Part shown: positions 35,616-44,489 of the stretch, piece after piece | How positions within the stretch are numbered: position 1 is the stretch's first letter | Layout of the letters: each line of letters starts with the position of its first letter | Assembly: GCF_020531915.1 (NCBI RefSeq) | Contig: NZ_JAJAVG010000008.1 | Location: forward strand, 434,001 to 498,000 | Source of the DNA: Methylovorus mays | GTDB lineage: Bacteria > Pseudomonadota > Gammaproteobacteria > Burkholderiales > Methylophilaceae | DNA length: 64,000 bases | Reading direction: 5' to 3' | The notes under the pieces: model-generated | The model's database searches: none | The model's input: the letters and a program-made list of their open reading frames with translations, nothing else | Told to the model about the DNA's origin: nothing | Program-made: the position numbers and the translations under genes

Positions 35616-35630
35616 ATGGGGAAAACAAAA

Positions 35631-37004
35631 ATGGAGATAGGCCCAACAAGTCCAGACTTCTTAATGGCCGCCTTAATCGCATGGCTTTTGCCTGTCATCT
35701 CTTGGGGCTTGATGCAAAGCCAGTTTTCCATGTCAAAAAAATCCTGGTGTCTGGGCCATCTATTACTGGCCATTTCCCTGCTGCAGCTTCTCGTATTCCC
35801 AGGGTCAACCCTTCATTGGGTCACATTCATCTGCATCCTCATCGCCAATACCTTGTGCGCTTACAGCTTGGCGCTGGAACTCACCAATATCATTCAATGG
35901 CGAATGTGGGCCATTATCCTTGGCGTGGTCTGCGCTGCCTATGCCCTGATCCAGCAGGCAGGTCATCGCGAATTGAGCGTGCTATTCACGCAGTTCATAT
36001 TCGCATTACAACTTTCCGGATTGTGCCTGCTTGCATTCAAGTTACACAAACAAGCATCCCTGGAGAATGCAAAGTGGCTGGGATACAGCTATACCCCAGC
36101 GCTTATCGGCGTGCTGGAGATGCCAGACACGCCTCTATTCAATCATGTGCCATTACCCATGAGCATGCCATTAGACGGCGACCTGTTCTATATCTGCCTG
36201 CTTTCCTCCAGCATCTTCTCGCAATTCGCCTATCTTGCCCTGATTTATGAAAAAGGGGCCGCAAAAAAAGTAACGGGACACATGAAGGAAGCCGACGCAG
36301 ATGAGCTTCATCATCTGAATGAAATCGCCCATAACGCCAGGCAAGAAGTACTGCTCGAACTCACGCCTTACCTTGCCCATGAACTCAGCCAGCCACTCTC
36401 CAGCATATTGCTTGAGATACAGTACATTGAACGGTTACTACCCAAAGAAAATGCCATTGATCAGGAAATCCTTGCTGCCACGAATCGCATCTCATCCGCA
36501 GCTCAAGCAGCATCCCGCATCGTCAACAATATCCGTTCCTTTATTAAACCTTCGGCAACCACCCATCGCAAAGTTTCCATTAATGAGCTAATCGCCAAGG
36601 CCCATGATCTTGTTCACGCGTATGCGGGAAAAGCCGGCGTGAATTTTGTATTTACCCCGCCCGAACACCCGATGTTCATTATTGGTGACCAGGCCATGCT
36701 GATCCAGGTGCTCGTCAATATTTATCGCAACAGCATTGATGCAATGCGCGACGCGCCCAACAAGATCATCCATGTTAGCGCGTATATGCAGGCGATATTT
36801 CCCTGTATTGAAATCACAGATAGCGGTGATGGATTTAAAAATCTTGAAACACTCGGCACGCCATTCATGACCACAAAAGAAAATGGGCTTGGACTGGGAC
36901 TTGCTATTTCAAGCTCAATCATGCGGTTGCATCAAGGAGAGATTCTTTTTTCAAACGCTAAGGAAGGGGGCGCAAAAATCAAGTTACGTTTCAGAAGTAG
37001 TTAA
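35631..37004 (+). CDS. Membrane sensor histidine kinase, FixL-type H-box
   Basis: About 457 residues. About seven hydrophobic segments fill the first 200 residues (no PAS, HAMP or periplasmic domain evident). The cytoplasmic kinase core has H-box AHELSQPLSSILLE (phosphorylated His), N-box NIYRNSIDAM, G1 DSGDGF and G2 GLGLGLAIS. The AHELxQPL form is typical of the FixL/TodS-like group. ATG 35631 is preferred over the ATG five codons earlier because GGGGA precedes it by 8 nt. It pairs with the response regulator 62 bp downstream. The signal sensed is unknown; the membrane domain is the sensor by elimination. Confidence 0.88.
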   Translation: MEIGPTSPDFLMAALIAWLLPVISWGLMQSQFSMSKKSWCLGHLLLAISLLQLLVFPGSTLHWVTFICILIANTLCAYSLALELTNIIQWRMWAIILGVVCAAYALIQQAGHRELSVLFTQFIFALQLSGLCLLAFKLHKQASLENAKWLGYSYTPALIGVLEMPDTPLFNHVPLPMSMPLDGDLFYICLLSSSIFSQFAYLALIYEKGAAKKVTGHMKEADADELHHLNEIAHNARQEVLLELTPYLAHELSQPLSSILLEIQYIERLLPKENAIDQEILAATNRISSAAQAASRIVNNIRSFIKPSATTHRKVSINELIAKAHDLVHAYAGKAGVNFVFTPPEHPMFIIGDQAMLIQVLVNIYRNSIDAMRDAPNKIIHVSAYMQAIFPCIEITDSGDGFKNLETLGTPFMTTKENGLGLGLAISSSIMRLHQGEILFSNAKEGGAKIKLRFRSS

Positions 37005-37066
37005 CTTATGTAATCCATCGAAAAACATAAATCCAAAACACTCTCTCGGGGAAAGTACTTATTAAT

Positions 37067-37702
37067 ATGGAACTACTCAATAGCCATAGTAAGAACGTCA
37101 TCATCATTGACGACGATCCAGCGATCAATGCATCCATGTCGCGCTTTTTGACATTGGCGGGGTACCAATGCCACGTATTCGGTTCGGCCGTCGGTGTAAT
37201 CAGCTTCATCAAAGAACATACTGAGTTTCTGACGACCCCTTCATGCATCGTTTGCGACAACCAGATGAGCGGCATGACAGGGTTGCAGCTCCAGGAAGCG
37301 TTGCAAGACAAGGACATTAACGTACCATTAATTCTGATCAGTGGAGAAAGCGATGTTCACGAAGTCGCCAGCGGATTCAGAAAGGGGGCAATTGACTTTC
37401 TGATCAAGCCGCTAGATGTTAACAAGCTTGAACAGGCCACCGAAAAAGCCCTGGCCTACCACTCCACACAATTGCAATCGACCAGCAGCAAATCCATCCT
37501 GGCCAGCCGGGTGGCTTTGCTTACGCCACGTGAACGCGAAGTGGCACGTCTGGTGGCTAAAGGGCACACCAACCTTGGGGTGGCATTAAATCTCAATATT
37601 GCATTAAGAACGGTTAAGCTGCACCGGCACCGTGCATTAAAAAAGCTGAACGCTTCGGGCCTGGTCGATCTGGTGAAAATCAGTGAGCTAGTAGATTTGT
37701 AG
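37067..37702 (+). CDS. FixJ-type response regulator (REC + LuxR HTH)
   Basis: 211 residues. Receiver domain 1-125: acidic pocket IIDDDP, phospho-acceptor Asp in CIVCDNQMSGM, switch Ser in LISGES, Lys in FLIKPLD. C-terminal LuxR/NarL helix-turn-helix about 145-205: LTPREREVARLVAKGHTNLGVALNLNIALRTVKLHRHR. Cognate partner of the upstream kinase. The genes it controls are not evident; nearby candidates are the kinase operon itself, the convergent surface protein and xoxF (inference). Confidence 0.9.
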   Translation: MELLNSHSKNVIIIDDDPAINASMSRFLTLAGYQCHVFGSAVGVISFIKEHTEFLTTPSCIVCDNQMSGMTGLQLQEALQDKDINVPLILISGESDVHEVASGFRKGAIDFLIKPLDVNKLEQATEKALAYHSTQLQSTSSKSILASRVALLTPREREVARLVAKGHTNLGVALNLNIALRTVKLHRHRALKKLNASGLVDLVKISELVDL

Positions 37703-37941: not shown

Positions 37942-40251
37942 TCACTCCACCTGGACCTGGAAGAGTACATTCCCACTGGCAGACGGGTTGAGGATCCCAT
38001 CAAAACTCCATTGCATTTCCCCCTTGCCACCCTTTGACTGCGTGGCCGAGCAGGCTACCGGTGTGCTGGTGTTCTGGGGGGTTGTCTTCAGGCAGTTGCC
38101 TAAGTCCGGCGGCGTCGTGCCCGCACTCGCCGACTGGAAGATCGTATACGCCGGCGTGCTGTCCGAGATCACTATCGTGCTCATCGGGCTGCTGCTCTTG
38201 TTGGTGTAGGTAACACGGTATTCCAGAATGTCTCCGCTCTTGGCTTGGTTCTTGGTGCCGAAGGTGCCACTGTTTGTCACGTTACGAACCTCTTTCACCA
38301 AGGAGAAGGCATTGTTGCCCACCGTGGTAGTCTCTGTGACGCTGTAGCTGGCACTCAGGCTGGGGCTGGCGTTGCTGAAGCTGAACGTGCCGCTGAGGGT
38401 CGTGATGTTGCTGTTGCCGTTCATTGCGGTGGCGGGAACGCTGACCACACTCACCAGGCACATAACCTCACCCTGTATCACCGTGACCGGCCCGGTAATG
38501 AGGCTGGCATTGCTTTGACGACTACCCGTGCAACCCGTGTCAGTGTAAAGCGCGTTATTCCAGCCGCTGATCGTGGGGGTGGAGACTTGGCTGCTGCTGA
38601 AGCTGACGCTGCCCCCTGTGCCCGCCGTGAAGGTGTGGCTGTAAGAGACGGTTCCTCCGGCTTGGCCGGACTGCGTGCCGTTACTGGTGAAGGTGCTGAC
38701 CGGGACCAGGCCGAAGTTGAGAACGGCAGTACCGCTGGCGGGGGCGCTGAAGCTGATGCGCTGGGTGCTGCGGCTGTAGGTGTAGCTAATGCTATTGACG
38801 TTAGTGGCGGTGTCACTCGGCAACACGGTGCCGTTGGCGTTGGCGCCTGTGCCCAGGTAGGTGTTGGGTGCCGTGACGCTGACGCAGAGCGGACTGCCTG
38901 CCGTGACGCTACTGGGGATGTTGAAGGCCCAGGCGCCGTTGCCGTCGGTGGTGGTGGTGCCGTAGCTGGTGCTGCCGCAGTCACTCAGGCTGAGGCTGAG
39001 GTTGCTGATGCCGGCCTCATTGCCGTTACGCAGGCCGTCGTTCGGAGTGCCGGTGTTGCTGGTGCCGTTAGGGGCACCACCGTCATTGAACACGACGCCG
39101 GAAAGACCGTTCAGCTGGTTGACAATAGTGCAGGTGAAGTCGGCATTCGCCACCATTTTATTGGCAGGGATGGTGAGCACGCTGCCCGTGAGAGTACCAA
39201 TGGCGCCGGTGCCGTTATTGTCGGTGCTGCCGTTGGCGTCTACGCAACTGGCGGAGACTGGCTGCTTGGACCAGCCGAGCGGACCGGCGGATTCGGTAAT
39301 GGTGGCTTCCTGCCCGGCGGTGCCGCTGAAGGTGGTGGGGTGCTGCACAGCGGTGCCGGCGGTCACCGTGGTGATGCTGGCGGTGGTGGCCGAGAGGCCT
39401 TTCAGCTCAAACGTGAAGGTGCCAACACCGCCTTGCGATTGCTTGGCGATCTTCACACGCGGATTAACCAGCACGCTGATCTCGTCGTTGGTGCTTTGCC
39501 AGACGGTGTAGGCGGCAGCGGTGCTGCCCATTGTGATGAGGTTCATCGGGGCAACACCGATGGTATTGCGTGTCCCGTTGGTGAAGGCCGTCGCGAAGAG
39601 GTGATCGCTGTCTTTGGTCCAGTTGCTCACCGTCAACGCATAGCTGTTGAGGGTAAGGGTGGCGACTTTCAAGCTGGCAAAGCCGCTGCTGTCCAGGTCG
39701 ATGGTACTGGCCGCGTTCTGGCTTAAGGTGCCCAGGCTGATCGTCTTGCCACCAGCGATCTTGAGCGTACCTCCAACCAGGACGATATTGACGTTGAGGT
39801 TGGTAAGGTTGTCTGTCAGGATCAGTGTGGCGCCACTGTTGACCGTGATGGTGCCGCTGCCGGTGATCGTGCCGACGCTGAAGGTGCCGCTGGTGAGTGT
39901 CACACTGGCATTGGTGCCAAGCGCGAGTGTGCCACTAATGCTGGTATTGGCGCTACGCGTCACGCTTTGGCTGTTGATGTCGAGCGTGGCACCATTATCT
40001 ACCGTCACCACGCTGCCAGCGGGCACGCCACTATTGCCACCGTAGCTTAAGGTACCAGCGCTCACTGTGGTGTTACCACTGTAGGTATTTGCGTATGACA
40101 GGGTCACCTTACCAGCGCCAGTCTTGGTGACTGTTCCGTCATTCCAGAGCAGAGCACTAACTAATAGAGTGGCGCCAGATGCGGCAATATGCGACCCGAA
40201 AAGCAAGGTAAACCTGGGCATACAAATGGGGGGAAGTTGGCGATTGCTCAC
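37942..40251 (-). CDS. Large surface-type protein with autotransporter-, SdrD-B- and DUF11-like domains, no clear export signal
   Basis: 769 residues, very rich in Ser/Thr/Gly/Asn/Val and nearly free of Lys/Arg. Order: a passenger-associated repeat (about 43-70, TKTGAGKVTLSYANTYSG), beta-helix-like stretches to about 270, a prealbumin/SpaA-like domain (270-380), an SdrD B-like domain (381-510, GLSGVVFNDGGAPNGTSNTG), a linker domain, and a DUF11-like C-terminal domain (650-769, EYRVTYTNKSSSPMSTIVISD) ending SGNVLFQVQVE, a common natural end for this family. The N-terminus (MSNRQLPPICMPRFTLLFG...) is only weakly hydrophobic and joins abruptly to mid-passenger sequence, so the gene looks 5'-truncated or recombined. 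No outer-membrane beta-barrel, LPXTG or sorting signal is seen. Confidence 0.75.
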   Translation of the reverse strand: MSNRQLPPICMPRFTLLFGSHIAASGATLLVSALLWNDGTVTKTGAGKVTLSYANTYSGNTTVSAGTLSYGGNSGVPAGSVVTVDNGATLDINSQSVTRSANTSISGTLALGTNASVTLTSGTFSVGTITGSGTITVNSGATLILTDNLTNLNVNIVLVGGTLKIAGGKTISLGTLSQNAASTIDLDSSGFASLKVATLTLNSYALTVSNWTKDSDHLFATAFTNGTRNTIGVAPMNLITMGSTAAAYTVWQSTNDEISVLVNPRVKIAKQSQGGVGTFTFELKGLSATTASITTVTAGTAVQHPTTFSGTAGQEATITESAGPLGWSKQPVSASCVDANGSTDNNGTGAIGTLTGSVLTIPANKMVANADFTCTIVNQLNGLSGVVFNDGGAPNGTSNTGTPNDGLRNGNEAGISNLSLSLSDCGSTSYGTTTTDGNGAWAFNIPSSVTAGSPLCVSVTAPNTYLGTGANANGTVLPSDTATNVNSISYTYSRSTQRISFSAPASGTAVLNFGLVPVSTFTSNGTQSGQAGGTVSYSHTFTAGTGGSVSFSSSQVSTPTISGWNNALYTDTGCTGSRQSNASLITGPVTVIQGEVMCLVSVVSVPATAMNGNSNITTLSGTFSFSNASPSLSASYSVTETTTVGNNAFSLVKEVRNVTNSGTFGTKNQAKSGDILEYRVTYTNKSSSPMSTIVISDSTPAYTIFQSASAGTTPPDLGNCLKTTPQNTSTPVACSATQSKGGKGEMQWSFDGILNPSASGNVLFQVQVE

Positions 40252-40647: not shown

Positions 40648-42141
40648 TCACCGTGTAAACAGCCCTATCACATGCTTAATCTTCAGGATGAGCTCCTTCA
40701 TCTGAAACTCGTCCAGATGGGAATAGCCTAAAAGCACGCCCGGCAGGCGACTGCTTTCGGCCGCGTAATGAATATTCTGGACCAGCTGAATGCCGGCTAG
40801 CTTTACATGCTCAGCCCAGACAACAGGCGGGATGGAAAGTTTAAACCCCAACCAGAAAAACAGGCCAGCCTCTGGCATACGAAATGACACCAGTTCGCCC
40901 AGCTCATCCAAAAGCAGGTTGGCGGCGTACAAGCGACGTTGGTTGTAAATACGGGAGGCACGACGCACCAATCGGTGGAATTCCCCATTCTGGATAAGTT
41001 CGGTAATGGCTGACTGACTCACCGGGTCGTCTACTTGCCCCATCAACTGGCGTTGGCGTGCGCATTTATCAATGAACTGCGGCGTATTGGCGATGTAGCC
41101 TACTTGGCGATCAGCAGGCAACACGCTCGGCAGCGCGCCGAGATAGATGATCCGTTTGCGCATATTGCCCGTCGCGACGGGCGGAAACGCAGGTCTATTG
41201 AAAAAGAGATGCTGGGAATAATCAGCCGCAATAATGTGAAAATCCAGCTCATCGGCGACCTGCAGCAGTCGTCGTCTACGCGCAACGCTCAGGGAGACGG
41301 TAGTCGGGTATTGCACCTGATGAGTGACAAAAATGGCCTTCACCGGATGATGGCGGCAAAGTGCTTCTATCTCGTCATCTTTCACCCCAGCCTCATCAAT
41401 ATCGGCAAACAGAATACGCGCACCTAGCGACTCAAATACACTCAAGGCTTCCGCGGGGGCCCAACGTTCAAAAATCACGTAATCGCCAGGAGATAGTAAA
41501 GCACGCGCGCTGATATAAATGCTCTGTTGTAATCCGCGTGTCAGGCAAAGCTGATCAACCGCCACATTAAAGCCACACTCCTCATGCAATAAACCAGCTA
41601 CGGCCTGCCGGAACGTGGGGTGCCCTCTGTAGTCGGGTGCTTCCATATAGGAGGCACGCGCGACTTTAGCCATGGCACGCTTGGAGGCCCGGATGTAGGT
41701 TTCATATGGAATAACCCGTTTGTCCGGCAATCCCTCGCCCAACAACAGCATAGGGGTTTGCTGCGGCGTAATTGGCATGGACGCGCTGGCGGAGAATGCC
41801 AAGTCCAGTGCCGGGACCTCCAACAGCTGGGTTTTTGCAGGATAAGGCAGAGCCTCAGAAACAAAGGTTCCTCGTCGATGCTGAGTGGTAAGCCAGCCCT
41901 GAGCAATCAGTTCGTCGTATGAAAGTACAATGGTTTTGCGGTTAACGTTCAGCATCGCCGCTAGCTCGCGGCTGCCTGGCATGACGGTATTGGGTGGCAG
42001 TCGCCCCTGGCGGATTTTTTCAACGATTTGCTCGGCAATTTGCAGGTAAAGCGCCGTGCCAGGCTTGAATGGACTGAAATCAATATTCAGGTTCCAGGTA
42101 CGACGTAAACTTTGGCCATGTGACGACATAGTGCGCGTCAT
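40648..42141 (-). CDS. MocR/PdxR-family regulator with degenerate PLP site
   Basis: 497 residues. N-terminal GntR-type winged HTH (about 20-95: ALYLQIAEQIVEKIRQGRLP, MPGSRELAAMLNVNRKTIVLSYDEL, GWLTTQHRRGTFV), linker, then an aminotransferase-I-like domain (about 150-490). The usual GTxSKxLxPxxRxGY segment reads GALPSVLPADRQVGY: the Schiff-base Lys is Ser339 and the phosphate-binding Arg is Gln346. Upstream, the EDDY motif reads AADY, so the Asp that holds the PLP ring nitrogen is Ala306. The spacings (33 and 7) match GabR Asp279/Lys312/Arg319. PLP binding is therefore doubtful and another ligand is likely. Divergent from xoxF. A second Met (MSSHGQS) four codons in is an alternative start. Confidence 0.9.
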   Translation of the reverse strand: MTRTMSSHGQSLRRTWNLNIDFSPFKPGTALYLQIAEQIVEKIRQGRLPPNTVMPGSRELAAMLNVNRKTIVLSYDELIAQGWLTTQHRRGTFVSEALPYPAKTQLLEVPALDLAFSASASMPITPQQTPMLLLGEGLPDKRVIPYETYIRASKRAMAKVARASYMEAPDYRGHPTFRQAVAGLLHEECGFNVAVDQLCLTRGLQQSIYISARALLSPGDYVIFERWAPAEALSVFESLGARILFADIDEAGVKDDEIEALCRHHPVKAIFVTHQVQYPTTVSLSVARRRRLLQVADELDFHIIAADYSQHLFFNRPAFPPVATGNMRKRIIYLGALPSVLPADRQVGYIANTPQFIDKCARQRQLMGQVDDPVSQSAITELIQNGEFHRLVRRASRIYNQRRLYAANLLLDELGELVSFRMPEAGLFFWLGFKLSIPPVVWAEHVKLAGIQLVQNIHYAAESSRLPGVLLGYSHLDEFQMKELILKIKHVIGLFTR

Positions 42142-42251
42142 GCCATACGCACCTGTTGCACATCTGGATCGATCAGTGTTGCAGCGTTAAACATGGGAAA
42201 TTTCATCAGGGATCAGCCCCTGAATTGTCGCTCATTGACCCCTGGTAAAAT

Positions 42252-42285
42252 TGTAGCAATTTGTATATTAAATGTTACAATTTGT
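42252..42285. promoter_or_regulatory. Direct-repeat operator candidate between MocR gene and xoxF
   Basis: Two 13-bp direct repeats, TGTAGCAATTTGT (42252-42264) and TGTTACAATTTGT (42273-42285), identical at 11 of 13 positions and 21 bp apart, i.e. two helical turns. MocR-family regulators commonly bind direct repeats on one helical face. The same bases also give an inverted repeat ATTGTAGCA / TGTTACAAT. On the minus strand TTGTAA and TACAAT (19-bp spacer) could be the promoter of the regulator itself, about 100 nt before its start, so autoregulation is likely. Confidence 0.5.
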
Positions 42286-42491
42286 TGGCATTCACTTGCC
42301 CGCATGTTGCAGCATGTATGTGTACACTTCACGCCAAAACCTGATACATCCAAGCTAACAAGGCAAACTAGGATTGCCACAGTCCACTGCCAGCTTAATT
42401 TCTCACTGCCTGGCCCCCAATGATGATCGCCATCTGGACCATTTGGACCCTTAAAGTTATTTCATCTGGCTCACGCCATCCATTTTACGTT

Positions 42492-42532
42492 TCGTTACAG
42501 TCTTTCGCTTCAAACCTTAATTTCTCGTTACA
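42492..42532 (+). promoter_or_regulatory. Repeated TCGTTACA upstream of xoxF
   Basis: TCGTTACA occurs at 42492-42499 and 42525-42532, 33 bp apart (about three turns), 86-126 bp before the xoxF start. It shares GTTACA with the right half of the upstream repeat. It may be a second regulator-binding region in the xoxF promoter; no convincing sigma-70 -35/-10 pair was fixed. Confidence 0.35.
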
Positions 42533-42617
42533 TATTTGAGGTTTGGTCAGAAAAAGGGGCTCAACCCCATTCCCACAGCTATGGTGGCGTAAGACTTAAA
42601 CAATGGAGATTTTAAAG

Positions 42618-44489
42618 ATGAGCAAGATGAAATTGGCACTGGGCGCCGTGGTCGGCATGACCGTCGCCCTGCCCATGATGGCATTTGCTGCAGCCGATCA
42701 GGAAGCCGCAATGGCCAACCCTGCCAACTGGGCTGGCCCACGTGGTCAGTACAATGGCCAAGGCTACAGCACGCTGAACCAGATCAACAAATCCAACATC
42801 AAGAGCCTGAAATCGGCATGGACTTTCTCTACCGGTGTTAACCGTGGTCACGAAGGCTCCCCCTTGGTGATCAATGGCGTGATGTATGTGCACACTGCGT
42901 TCCCGAACAACGTTTACGCGCTGGACCTGAACGACGACCAGAAGATTCTCTGGACTTACTTCCCCAAGCAAGACCCCTCCGTACAAGCAGTGCTGTGCTG
43001 CGACAACGTCAGCCGCGGCCTGGGTTTTGGCGATGGCAAGATTTTCCTGCAACAGAATGACGGCATGCTGGTTGCCCTGGATGCCAAGACCGGTGCCAAG
43101 GTTTGGGATGTGAAGAACACCGACCCCAAGCTGGGCGCCAGCAACACCAACGCACCTCACGTATTCAAGGATAAAGTGCTGACCGGTTGCTCCGGCGGCG
43201 AGTTCGGCGTGCGCTGCTTCCTGGCTGCTTACAACCTGAAAGATGGTTCGCTGGCCTGGAAAGCTTACTCCACAGGTCCTGATAGCGAAGTGCTGATCGG
43301 CGAAGACTTCAACAAGGCTAACCCGCACTACAATGCGCTGTCTGTATACCAGGACGTGAACGGTGGTAACAAGGAAGGTGGCTCGTTCAAGGCACTGACC
43401 AAGGACCAGCTGAAGTACCCTGAAAAAGAACTGGGCACGCGCACCTGGCTGAAGCCACAAGCCACCAAGAATGGCTGGGAGCACGGCGGCGGTTCCGTAT
43501 GGGGCTGGTTCTCCTATGATCCCAAGCTGAATTACGTGTACTACGGCACGGGTAACCCATCTGTCTGGAACCCGGACGTACGTCCTGGTGACAACAAGTG
43601 GTCCATGACCCTGTTCGCACGTGACTTGAATACCGGTATCGCCAAGTGGGGTTATCAGATGACCCCTCACGACGAGTGGGACTATGACGGCATCAACGAA
43701 ATCGTCCTGTTCGACAAGGGCGACAAGAAGTACGCTTTCCACACAGACCGTAACGGTTTCAACTACACCCTGGACCGCACCAACGGTACTCTGCTGGTGG
43801 CTGAGAAGGCTCACCCCTTCATCAACTGGGCGACCAAGGTTGACCTGAAGTCCGGCGTGCCACAAAAAGATGCGCGTTACTCCACACACGAAGACTACAA
43901 CGCCAAGGGTATCTGCCCGGCCGCGCTGGGTGTCAAGGACCAACAGCCTATGGCTTACTCGCCACGCACTGGTCTGATGTACATCCCGTTGAACCACGTT
44001 TGCATGACCTACGAGCCCGTGGAATCCAAGTATGTGGCTGGCCAACCATGGGTGGGTGCAAGCCTGACCATGTTTGCTGGTCCAGATGGCGTAATGGGCG
44101 GTTTCGAAGCCTGGGATCCATTGAAGGGCAAGGCCGTCTGGTACAACAAGGAGAAGTTCTCCTCATGGGGCGGCGTACTGGCAACAGCTTCTGACCTCGT
44201 GTTCTACGGCACTCTGGAGCGTGACTTCAAGGCCGTGGATGCACAAACCGGCAAGTTGCTGTGGAAGTTCCAGGTTGGTTCTGGCGTGATCGGCAATGCC
44301 TTCACCTACAGCAACAAGGGCAAGCAATACGTTGGCGTACTGTCCGGTATCGGCGGTTGGGCTGGCGTTGCGATGAACCTGGGCCTGGATAACGACTCCG
44401 ACGCACTCGGTGCCGCAGGTGGTTACAAGGAACTGACCAAGTACAACGCGGCTCCTGGCGGCGGTGCACTGAACGTGTTCAGCCTGTAA
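42618..44489 (+). CDS. xoxF: Lanthanide-dependent methanol dehydrogenase XoxF
   Basis: Periplasmic PQQ enzyme oxidising methanol (and possibly formaldehyde). 623 residues; signal peptide about 1-24 (ends MMAFA). PQQ propeller with vicinal disulfide Cys127-Cys128 (VLCCDN). The catalytic Asp355 lies in DEWDYDG, and Asp357, two residues on, is the extra lanthanide ligand that calcium-type MxaF replaces with Ala. Repeated W-motifs such as GTVLWKFQ-like [11 protein letters not shown] are present. The start at 42618 is set by GGAG nine nt upstream, although that GGAG lies inside an earlier in-frame ATG (42603). No mxaG/J/I or xoxG/J cytochrome and binding-protein genes and no pqq genes are nearby, so it stands alone. 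An intrinsic terminator follows. Confidence 0.96.

Follow-up and report, generated by a model that had tools for sequence, protein, structure and literature searches.

Loss of PLP-site residues in a MocR-type regulator divergent from xoxF in Methylovorus

In the window analysed here, a 64,000-nucleotide stretch of the Methylovorus mays genome, a gene divergent from xoxF encodes a MocR-type regulator in which nine cofactor and substrate positions are altered together. The Methylovorus MocR gene is under purifying selection, and its family is accompanied by a conserved predicted operator, found at the promoters of xoxF and of a gene cluster read as serving methanol dehydrogenase maturation. We propose that the protein is a dedicated, PLP-independent regulator of xoxF that would read a different small molecule in a re-shaped pocket, a proposal that we consider evenly balanced between right and wrong. 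The features discussed are listed in Table 1.

Table 1. Coordinates of the regulator gene, its domains, the replaced PLP-site residues and the region shared with xoxF
Feature	Position in window	Strand	Basis
MocR-type regulator, 497 aa, GntR winged helix and aminotransferase-like domain without PLP residues	40648..42141	-	ORF and domain matches
DNA-binding winged helix (residues 31-94) with the recognition segment NVNRKT retained	41860..42051	-	Pfam
Aminotransferase-like (fold type I) domain, Pfam residues 145-435	40837..41709	-	Pfam and structure-sequence alignment
Ser339, Schiff-base lysine position (GabR Lys312)	41125..41127	-	Alignments
Ala306, ring-nitrogen Asp position (GabR Asp279)	41224..41226	-	Alignments
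Gln346, phosphate Arg position (GabR Arg319)	41104..41106	-	Alignments
Probable promoter of the MocR gene, GTAACA-17-TGnTACAAT	42250..42278	-	Weak consensus match, in a block conserved across three Methylovorus
Predicted operator, four CCAG-type boxes (42466-42470, 42443-42447, 42434-42438, 42410-42414)	42410..42470	-	Family repeat
xoxF, lanthanide-type methanol dehydrogenase, divergent, presumed target	42603..44489	+	Domain/family models

The regulator and its genomic context

Pfam matches assign a GntR domain (PF00392; 60.3 bits against a cut-off of 27, 1.5e-16) to the N-terminus of the protein and Aminotran_1_2 (PF00155; 39.2 bits against 19.7, 6.4e-10) to its C-terminal part. The predicted architecture, a GntR winged helix with a C-terminal fold-type-I domain, is that of a MocR regulator. 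Among named families, PdxR scores best (model NF052282, 242.2 bits) but stays below the cut-off of 320, and the GabR model NF052285 reaches 128.3 bits against a cut-off of 600. Hence, the sequence classifies the protein as a MocR by architecture, but neither as PdxR or GabR by curated cut-offs nor, as described below, as a PLP-dependent MocR.

The product of the divergent gene matches the model of PQQ methanol/ethanol-family dehydrogenases (TIGR03075, 649 bits), and the Asp-x-Asp in WDYDG, a signature of lanthanide (Xox) enzymes, can be read in its sequence. The start codons of the two genes are separated by 461 bp. The source genome has four copies of xoxF and three of the mxaR cluster, numbers also reported for Methylovorus glucosotrophus SIP3-4 (PMC4109929). 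An mxaF-like gene (G000:C9:274929-276698) was matched as two pieces with 51% and 54% identity to the query; these are separate matches of one 623-aa open frame, probably divided by a break in the alignment and not by a frameshift.

Residues of the PLP site

The first-pass annotation of this DNA had proposed that the lysine, aspartate and arginine of the PLP site are replaced by Ser339, Ala306 and Gln346, and that PLP chemistry has been lost in a protein that keeps the MocR architecture. The three replacements are confirmed. When all solved structures were searched with phmmer, GabR (4n0b/4mgr, E ~2e-23) was aligned over MocR residues 28-487, and S339, A306 and Q346 fell on Lys, Asp and Arg with no gap between them. 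The phmmer alignment with the aminotransferase 1wst places the three residues likewise, and a 77-row MAFFT alignment agrees. The concordance of these alignments rules out an alignment slip. An assembly error is ruled out by the presence of the same changes in three genomes: the two other Methylovorus genomes have Ser and Ser at the lysine position, Ser and Ala at the aspartate position, and Gln and Gln at the arginine position. A moved lysine can also be discarded, as the aminotransferase-domain lysines common to the three Methylovorus proteins (141, 154, 159, 268, 329, 359, 434, 487 and 489) include no relocated conserved lysine in the pocket loops.

Six more ligand positions are changed: the phosphate-loop Ser to Leu204, the stacking Tyr to Pro229, the His of the THQ-type loop to Val276, the two Ser beside the lysine to Ala336 and Pro338, and the Arg386-type carboxylate Arg to Leu470. 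Among 55 lysine-bearing relatives, each of these positions is close to invariant apart from the stacking one, which is Tyr in 42; the Arg386-type residue is Arg in 54 of the 55. The nine changes, taken with purifying selection on the gene, support the view that PLP chemistry has been lost while the architecture was kept. The first-pass annotation had suggested methanol, formaldehyde, an amino-acid adduct or a lanthanide as possible signals. Because Leu470 occupies the place of the carboxylate Arg, the pocket sequence makes an amino-acid ligand bound in the canonical manner less likely.

In a survey of MocR proteins, Asp279 and Lys312 were found conserved across all clusters (PMC6677901), which gives the present case its interest for the MocR field. 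With Ser339 and Ala306 in place of the Schiff-base lysine and the ring-nitrogen aspartate, the Methylovorus protein would fall outside the PLP-dependent MocRs. Its fold was assigned by sequence only, and two AlphaFold2 models (mean pLDDT 42 for the single sequence and 37 for the window plus L001) were too poor for inspection of the pocket.

A MocR family linked to xoxF and mxaRSACKL

The nearest relatives, with 79-80% identity, are found in two other Methylovorus genomes, one of them M. menthalis VKM B-2663, and both are divergent from xoxF. About 70 relatives with 27-43% identity occur in Methylophilaceae. In the tree, the family forms a clade of 70 rows split from remote MocRs by a 100/100 branch, and the Methylovorus row is nested in sets of 10 rows (100/99) and 16 rows (99/90); since the Methylovorus branch is long (2.6), its precise position among them is less certain.

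The divergent neighbour is xoxF in 32 distinct cases and the gene of a 349-aa MoxR-type ATPase in 26. The ATPase gene is followed by a DUF58 gene, then by genes for an unmatched protein of ~320 aa and a VWA protein, and the cluster is read as mxaRSACKL, involved in methanol dehydrogenase maturation; the names mxaR, S, A and C were given by domain order, with no curated model. Several copies of mxaRSACKL are known in Methylophilaceae (PMC4109929).

Tree position indicates that the Methylovorus protein is a member of this xoxF/mxaRSACKL-linked family. Its identity to the mxaR-linked relatives is 64% in the DNA-binding head and 32% in the aminotransferase domain, and only one of the 48 family-invariant positions changed in Methylovorus lies in the head. 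The mxaR-linked members share the predicted operator with it, but differ in that all 26 have the Lys, Asp and Arg and are divergent from mxaR, not from xoxF. No prior description of the mxaRSACKL-linked MocR of Methylophilaceae was found in the literature searched.

The lysine position has undergone at least seven changes on the family tree. The lysine is kept in 26/26 mxaR-linked members, and is lost in 11 of the 32 linked to xoxF (where Ser, Asn, His or Arg is found) and in 4 of the 12 located at a contig end or beside another neighbour. The first-pass annotation had raised the question of whether the same substitutions recur beside xoxF elsewhere. The answer is mixed: lysine loss is indeed repeated, but the full set of changes is specific to Methylovorus and many xoxF-linked members keep the lysine.

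A link of lysine loss to xoxF, as opposed to mxaR, is no more than suggestive, because the absence of losses on mxaR-linked branches has a P of 0.06-0.24 once tree length is allowed for (branch-length Poisson estimate); a comparison of lysine loss with gene context on independent pairs had three pairs only and therefore no power. Other MocRs are more constant. Both Asp279 and Lys312 are kept in 60/60 further MocRs from unrelated contexts in the same family of organisms, and the lysine is kept in 64 of 65 other MocRs from the genomes studied. At equal tree length, seven changes in the family against one in the other MocRs give P ~0.04 in a simple binomial test. The single exception, L102 (G055:C1, 588360-589748), is a remote MocR unrelated to xoxF, in which Arg replaces the PLP-site Lys and Val the Asp.

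A direct repeat as predicted operator

The intergenic regions of the family contain a direct repeat with the consensus TCCAG-N18-TCCAG (23 bp), in which GG generally precedes the second box. Of 58 xoxF/mxaR-linked intergenic regions, 42 contain two CCAG boxes spaced by 23 bp, while shuffled regions yielded at most two loci for any single spacing. In eight genomes searched with one mismatch or none, nearly all exact matches were located at xoxF/mxaR-MocR loci. In two genomes (G128 and G149) whose mxaR cluster lies apart from the MocR gene, the repeat stays with mxaR; in another (G121), where xoxF lies between MocR and mxaR, the repeat is found at both promoters; and two unlinked second mxaR clusters have a one-mismatch repeat. 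Because it is present at relocated and unlinked mxaR clusters and in three orthologues from outside the family of organisms, the repeat appears to track the regulator and its targets. The tie between MocR and xoxF that had been read from their adjacency is thus strengthened by a conserved predicted site at xoxF and mxaRSACKL promoters.

The outside orthologues (L244, L245 and L246), from other families of the order, have the lysine intact and the same repeat. Their neighbours are a ferredoxin-type reductase gene in two cases and a class II aldolase gene in one; judging from them, the regulator family may have originated outside methanol oxidation.

At Methylovorus xoxF the boxes are spaced by 23, 9 and 24 bp. 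The resulting 0/23/32/56 layout is common to the Methylovorus locus and to L033, L076 and L079. The first box pair departs from the consensus (GCCAG, TCCAA). The four-box array is present in three Methylovorus genomes, with one box degenerate in two of them, and box 4 has been kept in the three while the flanking DNA diverged. With CCAG pairs 23 and 24 bp apart, the array has in silico the form of a direct-repeat operator.

A search for a wider regulon in the source genome gave 52 matches with two mismatches or fewer, against 58 for a reversed control, and no repeat of the right type was found before any mxaR cluster of that genome or before its three remaining xoxF genes. The site at the xoxF promoter is the sole credible repeat there. 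Direct repeats of a different kind, TGTAAC/GTTACA, separate the MocR operator from the start of xoxF or mxaR, at 42494-42532 here and in 18 of 58 intergenic regions of related loci; they are possibly the site of a second regulator.

Proposed mechanism

In the mechanism that we propose, the GntR head would bind the TCCAG-type direct repeats ~130-190 bp upstream of xoxF, as the conservation of the site suggests, and the aminotransferase-like body would act as dimer and effector module without PLP. The protein would dispense with the PLP-amine aldimine switch on which GabR, PdxR and EnuR rely; most likely, a different, non-covalently bound small molecule would be read in the re-shaped pocket, and xoxF would be under the control of the protein. 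Because the operator is situated 133-189 bp before xoxF, beyond its probable core promoter, and its distance from the probable MocR promoter exceeds 130 bp, activation of xoxF may be more likely than autorepression, an indication that we take as weak. A counterpoint is that 21 xoxF-linked relatives keep the lysine; therefore, its loss is not required at xoxF. A more tentative idea, in which our confidence falls somewhat short of even, is that the family shed its cofactor several times at xoxF and that the Methylovorus pocket was remodelled to sense a different molecule connected with methanol oxidation.

Selection on the former pocket and alternative explanations

In comparisons of Methylovorus species, dN/dS amounts to 0.051-0.075 for the whole gene, 0.01-0.02 for the head and 0.041-0.079 for the aminotransferase domain (two pairs with measurable dS), values that are rough as synonymous sites are near saturation; pairs of PLP-intact members give similar figures (0.046-0.072). 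In three Methylovorus proteins, the segments of the former pocket reach 90% identity, while the remainder of the domain has 72% (p = 0.001). The same comparison gives 49% and 49% in a group with a lysine-to-histidine change (L098-L100). Two outcomes can thus be told apart in the sequences, with a pocket that appears re-fixed in Methylovorus and relaxed in L098-L100. However, pocket conservation need not imply a ligand, since the segments, picked by hand from the GabR alignment, include core and dimer-interface residues.

One alternative is that the protein is ligand-independent: its body would be a dimerisation scaffold, and the protein, locked in one state, would compete for the operator or occupy it permanently. 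We consider this rather unlikely, but the rival is serious because the EnuR variant Lys302His, which folds, dimerises and represses constitutively without PLP (PMC8739950), shows that a PLP-free MocR is workable in principle. The same change occurs naturally in L098-L100, whose pocket is no more conserved than the rest. Moreover, in each of three genomes (G064, G067 and G185) a lysine-lost paralogue accompanies a PLP-intact MocR that is mxaR-linked. Both loci have the operator or a relaxed form of it, and the paralogues likely compete for similar operators. The Methylovorus protein departs from these cases: conservation is higher in its pocket than elsewhere in the domain, and the source genome has no PLP-intact partner from this family, the other four matches there being remote.

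It is improbable that PLP, PMP or another B6 form is still bound non-covalently, with the protein working much like other MocRs. Some fold-type-I proteins do work without the lysine, such as ColD, which uses PMP and has His at the lysine place. In addition, the protein retains Tyr308 and the GxQ-loop Gln, and Arg345, which adjoins Gln346, might be a partial stand-in for the phosphate Arg; the Lys and Asp are absent regardless. What stands against B6 binding is the joint change of the Asp, the phosphate Arg, the phosphate-site Ser/Thr and Ser, the stacking Tyr and the His276-type residue. Neutral decay of a pseudogene in the making could be suspected from the long branch and from an aminotransferase domain that evolves fast (79% identical at the protein level in species that share 98-99.7% identity in XoxF), but is hardly credible given the low dN/dS, similar to that of PLP-intact pairs and lowest in the head, and the preservation of both the open frame and the operator across three genomes.

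Relationship to known regulators

GabR of B. subtilis shares with the Methylovorus MocR a GntR head and a fold-type-I body over nearly the whole length, and its operators are likewise direct repeats. In contrast, the target of GabR is gabTD, that of the Methylovorus protein would be xoxF, and GabR Lys312, Asp279, Arg319, Tyr205 (stacking) and Ser311 are all replaced. PdxR differs in that no pdx gene adjoins the Methylovorus MocR gene, whose product has lost the PLP site. The ectoine regulators EnuR/EhuR have the same architecture, but the lysine is conserved in 278/278 EnuR proteins inspected (PMC8739950), whereas the loss in Methylovorus is natural and accompanied by that of the rest of the site. 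Known regulators of xoxF and the lanthanide switch, two-component systems such as PedS2/PedR2, also control lanthanide alcohol dehydrogenase genes, but belong to protein families unrelated to MocR.

No report joining MocR with xoxF was found in the literature searched, and papers mentioning MocR together with methanol dehydrogenase concern other pathways, judging by title and abstract. Methylophilaceae carry up to four copies of xoxF. The regulator and its conserved predicted operator make a concrete candidate for tying xoxF to the mxaRSACKL maturation genes, and natural lysine loss, repeated and under purifying selection, makes it possible to study the role of the MocR fold without PLP.

Two other loci in the neighbourhood deserve mention. 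At 37942-40251 (-), a Thr/Ser-rich, adhesin-like ORF of 769 aa adjoins the MocR gene in the source genome only, among the three Methylovorus; the complementary strand also contains long open frames. Near xoxF, a histidine kinase (462 aa) and a FixJ/LuxR-type response regulator (211 aa) are encoded at 35616-37702 (+); the same type of pair adjoins the MocR gene in L034, and the pair is a candidate lanthanide- or methanol-responsive two-component system.
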